A stretch of DNA of 20,816 nucleotides from a virus. The translations under genes were made by a program, and so were the position numbers. The DNA lies in IMG/VR virus record IMGVR_UViG_3300006119_000078, positions 1-20,816 of that record; one strand, given 5' to 3'. A model generated the notes under the pieces. That model was given only the letters and a program-made list of their open reading frames with translations. It ran no database searches and was not told where the DNA came from. Positions 2,236-15,505 of this stretch are shown here, one piece after another. Position 1 is the stretch's first letter. Each line of letters opens with the position of its first letter.

Positions 2236-2311
2236 TGGTCTGGGTGACAGGACTTGAACCTACAACCTCCTGCTCCCAAGGCAGGCGCTCTACCACTTGA
2301 GCTACACCCAG
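2236..2311 (-). tRNA. tRNA-Pro (anticodon TGG)
   Basis: A complete 76-nt cloverleaf on the minus strand. Acceptor CTGGGTG pairs with CACCCAG, and the D stem is GCTC/GAGC. The anticodon stem is CCTGC/GCAGG with loop CTTGGGA, the T arm is GTAGG-TTCAAGT-CCTGT, and CCA is encoded. All stems pair when G-T wobbles are allowed. Confidence 0.96.
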
Positions 2312-6885: not shown

Positions 6886-7529
6886 AACGGACAGTCGTCC
6901 ACCACCGCGATGTCCGAGATGTCCTGATCGAGGTCGGTGTCCGACGTCTTGAGGTTGTTCAGGGGGTCGTCGATCTGGCTATCCGTCTTGATCACCGTGG
7001 CTCCGGGGAAGGCCAGCTTGGCGTACATTGTCGCCGTCTGCTGATCGACCAGAGCCGCAACCTCATCGAGCGACCAGACCACCTTCTTCCGGCCATCCGC
7101 AGCCACCTTGACCACATCATCGGGGTGCTTCACCACCACCAGCACAGCCCCGAAGTCCAGCACAGCCTCCCACTGCTCGACCGGCTTCCTGCTCTCGCCT
7201 GCAGCCTCAGCGGCCTTGTCGAGCGCGCGGTAGGCGCTGATCATCCGCTTGGTCTGTGTGCGCAGCTCCTCAAGATCCCCAGCCCAGATGGCCTGATTGG
7301 TCAGGTACCGCTGCCGGTCGAATTTCTCGCGCAGCTCAGCCCCGACCTTCATCCGGAGCGCACCGACGCCCCACTTATCCTCCATCGCCCGGATCACCAC
7401 CTTCATGTCATCGATGGCCTCGCTGCCGGCAATGTACAACCCGTAGGACGTCTGCCACGGAGCCGAGCCCGGCCTCGACGGGGGGAGGACAATGTTCGGG
7501 TTGCGCTTGCGCTGAAACGACTTGGCCAT
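6882..7529 (-). CDS. Phage protein of unknown function with SSB-like acidic tail
   Basis: The protein has 215 residues. The ATG at 7529 follows AAGGAG by 8 nt; an in-frame GTG 9 nt upstream lies inside that site. A basic N-terminus is followed by long helices (about residues 60-110) and a mixed alpha/beta part. The end (SDIAVVDDCPF) is acidic with a terminal Phe, like the protein-docking tails of SSB proteins. No OB-fold signature was recognised, so an SSB call is not made. It is the last gene of the long leftward operon. Confidence 0.75.
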   Translation of the reverse strand: MAKSFQRKRNPNIVLPPSRPGSAPWQTSYGLYIAGSEAIDDMKVVIRAMEDKWGVGALRMKVGAELREKFDRQRYLTNQAIWAGDLEELRTQTKRMISAYRALDKAAEAAGESRKPVEQWEAVLDFGAVLVVVKHPDDVVKVAADGRKKVVWSLDEVAALVDQQTATMYAKLAFPGATVIKTDSQIDDPLNNLKTSDTDLDQDISDIAVVDDCPF

Positions 7530-7921
7530 CAGTTGCACTCCTTAATCGCCCACGTTGCCCACTGCAGGGCGTCGGGGTGGTTCTCCATCAGATTGGTAAT
7601 GAACGCGCCGCCGGTGATCCGGCCATCCTTGTGCGCGAGGTGCCAGACCTTCTTCCGCGCCTTCGCATCATCCAGAAACAGCTTGTAGCTCTTCCAGCCA
7701 TCCCTCGACCACTCGGGTACGTGCACCAGCACCCACCGATCCTTCTTTGCCACATCGACCTCACCATCGTGCCGCATGTAGGCCCTGCCTCCGATCATGC
7801 GCGACAGCTTACCGGCCATTGCGTCCGCGCCCCCCTTCCGGCCATTGCGCCCACCGGCACGACGACCACCAGCACGATCATCCACACGACCGTCCACACG
7901 GCCATTCCTTCCTTCAGCCAT
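7529..7921 (-). CDS. Phage protein with Arg/Gly-rich N-terminus
   Basis: The protein has 130 residues from the ATG at 7921, 4 nt after GGAGG. Residues 4-35 are a low-complexity Arg/Gly/Asp repeat, often linked to RNA or DNA binding. The folded part, with WVLVHVPEWSRDGW and KARKKVWHLAHKDGR, has no recognised family. A later ATG (start MAGKLSRM) could give a shorter form without the repeat. Its TGA overlaps the next ATG as TGATG. Confidence 0.7.
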   Translation of the reverse strand: MAEGRNGRVDGRVDDRAGGRRAGGRNGRKGGADAMAGKLSRMIGGRAYMRHDGEVDVAKKDRWVLVHVPEWSRDGWKSYKLFLDDAKARKKVWHLAHKDGRITGGAFITNLMENHPDALQWATWAIKECN

Positions 7922-7952
7922 ACAACCTCCATCACATATCGCCTGCGCCAGC

Positions 7953-7972
7953 GGAAAGGGGGCGAAGCCCCC
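7953..7972 (-). terminator. Leader hairpin, terminator-like (minus strand)
   Basis: GGGGGC and GCCCCC close on TTC, followed by TTTCC on the minus strand. It lies about 30 nt before the gene at 7921. The U tract is short, so attenuation or mRNA protection is as likely as full termination. Confidence 0.4.
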
Positions 7973-8040
7973 GTGCGGGACGAGCCCCGTCAAGGGGCGA
8001 GATCACGCTTCCGCGCCCGGCGCGCTCAACTCCATATCCC

Positions 8041-8080
8041 TTATAGGTGCGCGTACCTCAGTACGCACCTTATAAAATAA
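8041..8080. repeat. Imperfect inverted repeat with an AT-rich flank
   Basis: TTATAGGTGC (8041-8050) faces GCACCTTATAA (8065-8075) around an inner GTAC-CTCA-GTAC. TATAAAATAA follows. It could be an operator overlapping a -10 region for leftward transcription. Confidence 0.45.
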
Positions 8081-8089
8081 GGTGGCCCC

Positions 8090-8251
8090 CTTCCGTTTTC
8101 GACTTCCGTGGTTTTTTCTTTTCTTTTCAATGAGTACGGAAGTCGCTTCCGCAGCTTCCGTGAGACTTCCGTAACGACTTCCGTGCAATGATTTCAATCA
8201 CTTAGAGATAGTAAGCACGCTTACTTCCGTGAGCTTCCGTGAGACTTCCGT
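8090..8251. repeat. Cluster of phased CTTCCGT repeats
   Basis: Plus-strand copies of CTTCCGT start at 8090, 8103, 8155, 8166, 8178, 8224, 8234 and 8245. A CTTCCGC variant is at 8146, and an inverted copy (ACGGAAG) is at 8136-8142. A further CTTCCGC lies at 8008. Most neighbours are 9-13 bp apart, close to one helical turn. The stretch 7922-8404 has no securely supported gene. The cluster fits a multi-site binding region for a phage regulator or replication protein. Confidence 0.8.
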
Positions 8252-8404
8252 GACCACTTTTGCCCCGTGCAGCAGGATGGCCGCGAAGCTGATCATGGCC
8301 AGCGGCGTCCACCACCACCTCTCCGGAAGGTACGTCAGGGCCTTGCCTGCCAGCCAGTAGGCTGCGGCTGTCGCTGCCAGATCGAGGATGGGGACTGCGG
8401 GCTC
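8198..8404 (-). pseudogene. In-frame hydrophobic extension after a TAG stop (possible small membrane protein)
   Basis: After the TAG of the gene at 8405, the same frame stays open for 68 codons and ends in TGA. It encodes two likely membrane segments: one around LDLAATAAAYWLAGKALTYL, the other around TPLAMISFAAILLHGAKVV after a WWW interface. No ATG, GTG or TTG precedes the first segment. The options are readthrough of TAG, initiation at a rare codon such as ATC or CTG, or a decayed fusion. The last residues are encoded by CTTCCGT repeats. Confidence 0.4.
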
Positions 8405-8671
8405 CTACTCCTTCGGAGCCTTGGTGATCCGCCCTGTCTTCTCGTCTCGGAAGAGGGCGTTGCGGACCTTGTTGTCGAGCTCGACAATCTGGTCCTTCTG
8501 CATGCGCACGCGGATCGACAGCTTGCTGTTCTCCAGCCGGCTGTTCCTCAGGTCGTCCTTGAGCTTTCGGATCTCCCGATCCTTGTCGATGACGTGCTGC
8601 AAGAGGTTCCTGACGGACTCTTGAAGCTCGGCCAGCTTCTTATTGGGGAAGATGGTGTCCAGAATGCTCAT
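8405..8671 (-). CDS. Coiled-coil protein of unknown function
   Basis: An 88-residue protein with a GCAGGAGA site 6 nt before the ATG. Residues 12-70 form a long heptad-patterned coiled coil (for example LAELQESVRNLLQHVIDKD), followed by a short basic tail. The stop is TAG, inside a 6-bp hairpin (GGCTCC/GGAGCC), and the frame stays open beyond it. If read through, the product would be a coiled coil fused to a membrane domain. Confidence 0.78.
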   Translation of the reverse strand: MSILDTIFPNKKLAELQESVRNLLQHVIDKDREIRKLKDDLRNSRLENSKLSIRVRMQKDQIVELDNKVRNALFRDEKTGRITKAPKE

Positions 8672-8695
8672 GCGCGTCTCCTGCCTTCTCTCACT

Positions 8696-9115
8696 TCATT
8701 CCGTGATCGACTTGAAGAGGGTTGTGCCGATCAGCACCACGCTCTCGCGGTCGAGGGGGTCGCCCCTGTCGTATCGTCCACCCACGCCTTCGGTGAAGGT
8801 CGCGGGGATCTTCACGTAGGCCAGATCGTCCGTCCACTGCACGAACAGCGCGGTGTTGAAGCCCTTCTTGCTCCAATCAAGCAGCGCGTCGTACTTGCCC
8901 CGCCCCAGCATGTACGTCTCGTACTTGTTGCGGGTGTTCGAACGCTTCTTGATCTCGACGATGGCCTTGGGCTTGCCCTCGGTGTGGAACAGAAAGTCGG
9001 CGCGGCTGTTCTGGGGCAGCTTGATGTATTCGGACTTCAGGTGCTTCCCGATCCTTTCCGCGATGATCAATTCCGCGTCGAGATCGGCCTGCGTTTCGTA
9101 CCGGGGACGTGCCAT
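8696..9115 (-). CDS. PD-(D/E)XK-type nuclease-like protein
   Basis: The protein has 139 residues from the ATG at 9115, 7 nt after GGAG. Residues 38-57 carry the motif of the PD-(D/E)XK superfamily: D40 in SRADFLFHT, then E54-x-K56 in AIVEIKKR on the next strand. E15 in the first helix could complete the site. A helix and the strand TALFVQWTDDLAYV follow, as in this fold. It is most likely a small endonuclease or resolvase-like enzyme. The target is unknown, and inactivity cannot be excluded. Confidence 0.72.
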   Translation of the reverse strand: MARPRYETQADLDAELIIAERIGKHLKSEYIKLPQNSRADFLFHTEGKPKAIVEIKKRSNTRNKYETYMLGRGKYDALLDWSKKGFNTALFVQWTDDLAYVKIPATFTEGVGGRYDRGDPLDRESVVLIGTTLFKSITE

Positions 9116-9167
9116 TTGTATCTCCGTTCTTTCGCCAGATGTACCATAAGCACCCAATTGGTACAAT

Positions 9168-9338
9168 CTATTGACCAGTTGGGCGGTTTTTCAGGTTCGC
9201 CTGCGCCCGCGGGACGAACGACTGGACGACGCTGCCCTGATCCCACTGGCCTGTTTCGATAGCCACCGCGCACGGCCGCCCCCAGACCTTGCTGGCAAGG
9301 CATAGCCGGCGCGCTTCCTTCATAACCTCTTCGCTCAA
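9168..9338 (-). CDS. Tiny protein, TTG start
   Basis: A 56-residue frame that starts with TTG, 8 nt after GGGGAG and overlapping the upstream TGA as TTGA. An ATG five codons later has poor spacing. The sequence is balanced, with two Cys, two Trp and a basic end. It ends in TAG. No family was recognised. The coupled overlap supports it as a real gene. Confidence 0.55.
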   Translation of the reverse strand: MSEEVMKEARRLCLASKVWGRPCAVAIETGQWDQGSVVQSFVPRAQANLKNRPTGQ

Positions 9339-13423: not shown

Positions 13424-15505
13424 TCAGTAATAGAGGCCGGTGATCACCTTCAGCCCCTTAATCTTGTTCTGCCTGTCGCACATATCGACCTCGACGATAC
13501 CGTTCAGGAGCCAGCTATTGATCAACCCCTCGGCCACCTCTTCGCTCATCTCCCAGCGGGTCATCAGCATCGGGGCGTAGCGGCCATCCCTGCGCGTGTT
13601 CGGCTGGGTGGACCACGGCTTCTTGTCGTTCCAAGCCCGCTCCATCGTGTTCAGGATCTCCTGACAGGTGAACTTGCTCGGCAGCTCCTGCACCACATGC
13701 AGGTCTTCCTTGGCCGCAGGCTCGGCGAACAGGCTCGTGTGGCCCGCCACGTCCCCGCACAGCACCTCTGTGAGCTTGAAGGCCTTCGACCACCCGTCAG
13801 CAGCCGCCTTGATCTTCTTGGCCTTCATTTCGCCAATCGTGACGCCTTCCTCGCGCCGGATCTCGTAAATGAAGTCGGCCGCACCATCGAGCACGCTCGA
13901 TCCGCGCATGCCCTGCTGCTTGTTGGTGTGGTGGATACCGAACATCGTGCAGCCGAACTCAACCTTGAGCTGGTCGCACGCACGCACGAACAGCGTCATG
14001 TCCTTCTGCAGGTTCTCATCCGCACCGGGCAGGGCACGGCTGACCGTGTCCACGAACATGGCCACAGGCATCTCGCCCATCATCATGTTCGAATACTGGA
14101 TGGTCATCGACAGCCGCTCGATCTCGTCCGGGCTCATGAAGTTGATGGGGACGTGGATCAGGTAGAACGGGATGCTGTCCACATTGATGCCGGTGGCGAC
14201 TTCCCAAGCCGCGATGCGGAACTTGAGATCGCTGACGCCTTCCGACGAAATGTAGATCACCGGCCCGTGCTTGTTGATCTTGTGCCCCCACCACTGCGCC
14301 AGCCCGGCCGCAATCGACAGCGCCATCGAGAGCGAGATGAACGTCTTCCCGCAGCCCGGCGCACCGTAGATTATGCCGAAGGCGTTCTCGATCACGACGC
14401 CCTCGATCAGCCACTTCGGGTCAGGCATGACCTTGATCATCGGGATCGACATCATCGGGAAGGGCTCGAAGACCGGCCTCTGGATCCCGTCCTCGTCCTC
14501 GGTCACCTCGTAGACCTTCTCGGCCGGCGCAGGCGCATCGCGCTTCTTCGGCACCGCTGCAGCTTCGGCCACGTCGGTGAACCACTTGCTCATCGCGATC
14601 TGCCACTTCTTGGCGAACTCGGTGATCCCGCGGCCTTCTCGCTCGAGCAGGTCGGCGTTCGAGATCCCGGCCTCGCGCAGGCGGCTCTTTACGCTGATGG
14701 CGTATTGGTTGAAGGCCTCGAGCATCAGCCGCTTCGAGATCTCGTCGGTCATCGAGACGTAGTCGCGCCTGTGATCAACCACCTTTGCCCAGATCAGCTT
14801 GGCCATGTAGTCTTCGCGCCCATCGATGATGGCGCCGAAGTTGTCGAGGGCGACGTCGGGGCTGTCCGTATGCTGCCGCGGGCCATCGACGCGGGTTGCC
14901 CCGCCGTACTTCTCCAGCACGTCCTCGACCGCCTCGAGCAGCCACTCAGCGGCGTCGGGGATCTCGATCTTCCACGGCTCGCAGCCGGGCATCCACGAGT
15001 AGTTTTTGCCGCTCTCGTGCATCGACGGGGGCAGCACGGCGAAGCCGCCGTGGCCGCGAATATCGACACCAATGGACGTCTTGCCCGTCGGGATGACATA
15101 GCCCTCGGGCGCGCGGACGAAGATCTGCAGGCCACCGCCGCCCGTGCGCTGTGTCGGCGCGGCCAGCGGCATGCTCGAGTTGTAATCGTCCAGAATATCC
15201 TGCCACCATTCCAGAGCTTGCGGCAGCTTTTGAATATCCAGATCGACGCACATAATGTTGCCAGAGCACTCGCCAGTCATCAGGCCGAGGTTCAGGCGGT
15301 GAAGGAACTCTCCGTTGTCGCCGTACCAGTCATTGAACAGCTCGTCGGAGATCAGCTTGTCCTGATATTCTTTCCACTTCACGCACGGACGCTTCCAAGC
15401 TTGGTTCTCGGACGGGTGCAGCGAGGGAACTACTTGCCAGCCAATGCTCCGATACATGTGTGCGTATTCCGAAGGGCCAGCAAACTCCTCGTCAAAATCT
15501 CGCAT
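13424..15505 (-). CDS. PrimPol-ATPase fusion (primase/helicase)
   Basis: The 693-residue replication protein joins two domains. Residues 1-200 look like a bifunctional primase-polymerase: MCVDLDIQ with D88 and D90, TGGGGLQIFV at 121-130, and the later metal ligand D148 in GVDIRGHGG. In motif 2 a Gln (127) stands where most members have His. Residues 345-560 are a RepA-like ATPase: Walker A GAPGCGKT at 381-388, Walker B AMFVDT with D486, and GIHHTNK at 523-529. Together they should prime and unwind DNA at the fork. A winged-helix-like end may follow. The Shine-Dalgarno sequence is weak (AAGAGAGA). Confidence 0.9.
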   Translation of the reverse strand: MRDFDEEFAGPSEYAHMYRSIGWQVVPSLHPSENQAWKRPCVKWKEYQDKLISDELFNDWYGDNGEFLHRLNLGLMTGECSGNIMCVDLDIQKLPQALEWWQDILDDYNSSMPLAAPTQRTGGGGLQIFVRAPEGYVIPTGKTSIGVDIRGHGGFAVLPPSMHESGKNYSWMPGCEPWKIEIPDAAEWLLEAVEDVLEKYGGATRVDGPRQHTDSPDVALDNFGAIIDGREDYMAKLIWAKVVDHRRDYVSMTDEISKRLMLEAFNQYAISVKSRLREAGISNADLLEREGRGITEFAKKWQIAMSKWFTDVAEAAAVPKKRDAPAPAEKVYEVTEDEDGIQRPVFEPFPMMSIPMIKVMPDPKWLIEGVVIENAFGIIYGAPGCGKTFISLSMALSIAAGLAQWWGHKINKHGPVIYISSEGVSDLKFRIAAWEVATGINVDSIPFYLIHVPINFMSPDEIERLSMTIQYSNMMMGEMPVAMFVDTVSRALPGADENLQKDMTLFVRACDQLKVEFGCTMFGIHHTNKQQGMRGSSVLDGAADFIYEIRREEGVTIGEMKAKKIKAAADGWSKAFKLTEVLCGDVAGHTSLFAEPAAKEDLHVVQELPSKFTCQEILNTMERAWNDKKPWSTQPNTRRDGRYAPMLMTRWEMSEEVAEGLINSWLLNGIVEVDMCDRQNKIKGLKVITGLYY

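Follow-up and report, generated by a model that had tools for sequence, protein, structure and literature searches.

A phased CTTCCGT array as the probable replication origin of an environmental phage, with a candidate reader domain in its primase-helicase

A cluster of CTTCCGT repeats at 8090-8251 of an environmental phage contig (IMG/VR record IMGVR_UViG_3300006119_000078; "the window" is the whole stretch analysed, 20,816 nucleotides) is probably a phage replication origin, a reading that comes from comparison of sequences and to which we give a probability of about 0.8. At the sequence level three things are established: how the cluster is built, that it is conserved along with a family of helicases, and that the type of iteron corresponds to the domain with which the helicase ends. 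Judged from their contigs, many related environmental viruses have the same arrangement.

The CTTCCGT array

Recounting confirmed the ten copies reported at 8090-8251 by a first-pass annotation of this DNA: nine are exact CTTCCGT, eight of them on the plus strand and one inverted, and one is CTTCCGC. The plus-strand copies fall into three blocks, at 8090-8109 (CTTCCGT at 8090 and 8103), 8147-8184 (the CTTCCGC variant at 8147, then CTTCCGT at 8155, 8166 and 8178) and 8224-8251 (CTTCCGT at 8224, 8234 and 8245). The inverted copy (8136-8142, minus strand) is kept at the same place in one relative (L434), and a further CTTCCGC stands at 8009. The window as a whole holds 10 exact CTTCCGT against 2.65 expected from dinucleotide shuffles, none of 100 shuffles reached 10, and nine of the 10 lie within these 162 bp. 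A near-identical sister contig (IMGVR_UViG_3300006116_000003, 60,313 bp) has 12, nine in the array and only three elsewhere, which bears out the clustering over a longer sequence; these counts rest on the 20,816-bp window contig and the sister contig, either of which may be a partial genome. The first-pass annotation had also raised the possibility of a second origin. Comparative evidence (below) backs the origin; "second" is without support, as neither contig has another cluster.

Successive starts in the array are 13, 33, 11, 8, 11, 12, 46, 10 and 11 bp apart. Six of these nine steps are 9-13 bp, in keeping with what had been claimed for most of them, and three (33, 8 and 46 bp) depart from it. 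Phasing is strongest at 11 bp (R = 0.79 against a null 95% limit of 0.66, the period having been picked post hoc), and same-strand steps in relatives selected by protein peak at 10 bp and are mostly 9-14 bp. Steps of about one helical turn would suit cooperative binding to the array, as first proposed. Several contigs fetched by the bare iteron pattern (L008, L019, L028, L087 and others) carry CTTCCGT every 12 bp exactly; the repeats of the four named here may be unrelated to origins, and are possibly coding or another kind of tandem repeat.

The array is flanked by likely genes at 7529-7993 and 8405-8671 (both minus strand) and crossed only by short or antisense ORFs. The stretch is not convincingly coding. 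Short direct repeats at roughly helical phase in a non-coding stretch, as in iteron origins, are thus what the locus contains. The AT-rich inverted repeat noticed earlier beside the cluster is real (TTATAGGTGCGCGTAC-CTCA-GTACGCACCTTATAA, 8041-8075, fold z -4.7) and lies ahead of the first iteron; in many relatives too a palindrome or hairpin immediately precedes the first iteron, with differing sequences. A nucleotide comparison of 7500-9200 with known phages gave no match. An Rfam search of the window returned two tRNAs only and no RNA element at the array; these are phage genes for tRNA-Thr(TGT) and tRNA-Pro(TGG), at 1250-1325 and 2236-2311 (minus strand). Directly to the right of the putative origin is a phage gene for a putative PDDEXK endonuclease (8696-9166, minus strand; PF24579). 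GC skew was dropped as independent evidence for an origin because four long contigs gave no consistent switch at the array.

Linkage of the array to a primase-helicase gene

The putative initiator is a 693-residue protein encoded at 13424-15505 (minus strand), in which a Prim-Pol domain (Pfam, 6e-20) and a RepA/RecA-like hexameric helicase (AAA_25, 2e-30) share one chain; such a union of primase and helicase is a feature of P4 alpha, not of SaPI Rep. In a structure search, which listed matches to the helicase core only, the best match was RSF1010 RepA, with which the AAA part aligns at Z 23 and rmsd 2.8 over 225 residues. The core accordingly matches AAA_25 and RSF1010 RepA and not a superfamily 3 or D5-like helicase. 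In the window the gene lies 5.2 kb from the array and does not adjoin it.

Searching for relatives with the iteron pattern retrieved two loci (L029 and L076) that share the layout, their blocks being separated by GATTTCAATGACTTA-like spacers and their arrays standing directly after a primase-helicase gene whose product is 34-40% identical to that of window 13424-15505. Since loci should not be chosen by their repeats, an unbiased set of 76 relatives was fetched by conserved helicase peptides alone (44-61% identity, except for the sister contig). Of the 30 loci in which downstream DNA extends for 6 kb or more, 23 carry at least five CYTCCGY within 250 bp on that side of the helicase gene, so that the repeats are indeed found in relatives; no locus has such a cluster upstream, where 41 offer 6 kb or more, and the threshold was reached in none of 380 shuffles. 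Variant iteron arrays lie beyond the helicase gene in four of six cluster-less loci: ACCTCCGG (L481), TCTCCGG (L485), TTATCCGCA with a core of the kind described below (L502) and GGTTCCGT (L508).

Across the protein-selected relatives the array always lies past the helicase gene, at a distance of 11 bp at the least and 6.2 kb at the most, and it keeps its position down to about 45% protein identity; the cores found in relatives by search pattern are likewise constant in orientation. These loci therefore show the conserved linkage to a putative initiator gene that is expected of an iteron origin, and constancy of side and orientation at varying distance is not expected of a site that regulates particular neighbours. 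In the Rhizobium phage RHph_N65, which has been isolated, an array of 12 GCGGAGA iterons with two cores starts immediately past the helicase gene.

A C-terminal domain that accompanies the iterons

The helicase ends in a domain of about 85 residues (approximately residues 607-693; 13424-13687, minus strand) with the signature W..gkPWS..PQt...GRYA...W...gvi....D..tK.kGL.V, and this we propose as the iteron reader. Neither Pfam nor a sequence search of the PDB gave a match to the domain, the PDB hits being without significance. An AlphaFold2 model built with 15 aligned relatives (a single-sequence model with pLDDT 33 was discarded in its favour) has helices at 611-626, 644-651 and 655-668 and a hairpin at 671-677/682-687, with pLDDT mostly about 90, and predicts a winged helix with high confidence.

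The domain goes with the iteron type. Among core-holding loci with related helicases, the domain is present in 44 rows, of which 40 have at least five YTCCGY, and absent from 22, of which none does. These figures include several copies of one locus and are in part non-independent, they come from a domain profile trained on 15 of the loci later scored, and many of the domain-positive rows were supplied by the helicase-protein search. The 22 domain-less rows have CGCAAAC, CGTTCCC, ACCCGAC, GCGCCAC and other iterons. The four domain-positive rows with other iterons are L498 and three with weaker domain scores (L232, L277 and L326). Is the association simply one of overall kinship? Apparently not, because three proteins with only 17-23% whole-protein identity to that of the window (L149, L220, L367) have both domain and iterons, whereas three with 21-29% (L276, L294, L303) have neither. 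A second, small protein that is not a helicase likewise ends in this domain; it has about 200-310 residues, is without match in Pfam or PHROGs, and is encoded beside the array in some ten loci (L462, L465, L469, L475, L481-L483, L486-L488, L499). That the domain and the iterons occur together in two protein contexts is good circumstantial evidence for iteron binding, and from this association we infer that it binds CTTCCGT. A diverged form of the domain occurs in Microcystis phage Mae-Yong1326-1 (L538), with GCGCCAGTC-like repeats after the helicase gene.

The small protein bears on the best-surviving alternative, that the array is an operator to which a repressor or activator binds cooperatively and so controls nearby transcription. 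With a reader-domain protein encoded beside the array, autoregulation is plausible in those ten or so relatives, and an operator function could be an added role of an origin. As the whole explanation we nevertheless consider it improbable, since the array follows the helicase family with side and orientation kept and distance varying; the control of leftward transcription first suggested for it is unsupported on the same ground, and a scan of 7900-8450 for promoters of the sigma-70 type found none. Since partition and packaging sites may likewise be built of short repeats in phase, a centromere bound by ParB, or a cos/pac site bound by small terminase, deserves mention; we rate it lower still, for it leaves the match between iteron type and the C-terminal domain of a helicase unaccounted for. 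That the repeats are a product of chance or composition we dismiss almost entirely: CTTCCGC is a common 7-mer in a GC-rich phage, but the concentration of exact CTTCCGT in 162 bp of a 60-kb contig, the shuffles of the whole window and the conserved position in relatives all speak against it.

A conserved core between the iteron blocks

In arrays of this type a conserved IHF-like core (ATGATTTCAATNACTTA) stands between the iteron blocks, and it is present beside quite different iterons too. Alignment with the arrays of four further relatives revealed two in the window: a degenerate first core, TTTTCAATGAGTAC (8124-8137, plus strand), after a T-rich run at 8110-8129 that is a possible melting segment, and a clear second core, AATGATTTCAATCACTTAG (8187-8205, plus strand), which is IHF-like with TCAA-N4-TTA. 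When the iterons of 35 arrays were masked, 26 core-like sites were found on the array strand and four on the other, against 2.9 expected. A search with the core only gave, among the matches listed, many contigs in which it is interleaved with CGTTCCC, ACCCGAC, CGCAAAC or TCTGGACA, often with a RepA-like helicase gene near. The core also occurs with TTATACT-type iterons in Paracoccus phage vB_PmaS-R3 (L429, 6002-6020), where the primase encoded nearby is a different one (DUF3987, NrS-1-like domain), and an exact core lies in a large plasmid of Ruegeria sp. AD91A (L430, 6001-6019), about 95 bp past a ribonucleotide reductase gene on its 3' side. Neither the iteron string nor the core string turned up in the literature searched.

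What binds the core? TCAA-N4-TTA is the heart of the IHF consensus; the window core TTTCAATCACTTA differs from the consensus WATCAANNNNTTR only at the second base, and four relatives (L076, L473, L478, L505) match it in full. Both at origins and at attachment sites IHF is a classic participant, which makes it the favoured candidate, with a chance of about one half. Conservation extends to the N4 bases, however, beyond what IHF requires, so that IHF alone is no full explanation.

The 19 bases of the core are also found in the genomes of many Alphaproteobacteria, exactly after tRNA CCA ends, at some 30 loci besides those of Sphingorhabdus wooponensis (L383, L523-L525). The latter comprise four core copies about 11 kb apart, each with the 3' part of a tRNA, and would resemble the attachment repeats of tandem integrative elements; no integrase was among the two ORFs checked near these sites (an AraC-like regulator and a methyltransferase). 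A tentative idea, which we think rather doubtful, is that the core of about 19 bp (AATGATTTCAATGACTTAG) is a landing site common to many phage origins with iterons and readers of their own, placed also after tRNA ends in alphaproteobacterial integrative elements, and recognised by a single shared factor other than IHF alone.

Comparison with known systems and a proposed mechanism

SaPI Rep, as described in PMC7581432 after Ubeda 2007, recognises by its C-terminal domain iterons just downstream of its own gene. Our comparison, made at the level of this description, finds a likeness in a helicase that would read short iterons by a C-terminal domain and in an origin that would lie downstream of the helicase gene. 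Unlike SaPI Rep, the present system has a RecA/RSF1010-RepA-like helicase with a fused Prim-Pol, a ACTTCCGT-like iteron and an IHF-like core between blocks.

The type I iterons of satellite phage P4 are very short, and P4 has a second site, crr. The likeness to P4 alpha lies in a single protein that would be multifunctional here too and in very short iterons, but here the ATPase is RecA-fold and RepA-like, not superfamily 3, and no crr-like second site was seen. Because the helicase core is from another superfamily, the system would work like SaPI Rep and P4 alpha and is not filed as a member of either group. RSF1010, whose RepA structures match the helicase core best, uses three separate proteins, of which RepC reads iterons of about 20 bp at oriV; in the phage all functions would sit in one chain, and the iterons are 7-8 bp. 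P4 alpha itself is described as uniting origin recognition, helicase and primase in one protein (Ziegelin 1993, as cited in PMC8628076) and is placed in helicase superfamily 3 (PMC9611036).

Phased iterons together with a site for an architectural protein, here a candidate IHF-like one, are shared with the origins of pSC101, R6K and other iteron plasmids with IHF (PMC4980987, PMC5043065); several iteron plasmids are assisted by IHF (PMC4980987). Their iterons are typically 17-22 bp (PMC4980987), and their initiator, unlike the phage protein, is no helicase.

We propose that the CTTCCGT iterons are read by the winged helix in which the primase-helicase ends, as the association of the two suggests, while a host bending protein, probably IHF, would fold the three iteron blocks together at the two IHF-like cores. 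On the model of SaPI Rep and P4 alpha, the helicase would then assemble cooperatively on the array, the AT-rich segments at about 8110-8132 and the cores would open, and a helicase ring would be loaded, the Prim-Pol domain making the first primers.

Implications

Although this kind of origin is familiar, the sources searched appear to contain no description of the reader domain, of a constant core combined with exchangeable iterons, or of how widely the family is spread. A constant core stands beside ever-changing iterons and is shared with tRNA attachment sites; if the idea of a common landing site is true, the core would serve replication modules and integration modules alike as a general plug. 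For a large, mostly uncultured phage group there is now a concrete, testable candidate origin and a named candidate reader domain, one that is absent from Pfam and found in two kinds of protein. The natural co-variation of iteron and domain is a ready set for deciphering a DNA-recognition code; plasmid replicons could also be derived from these phage origins.
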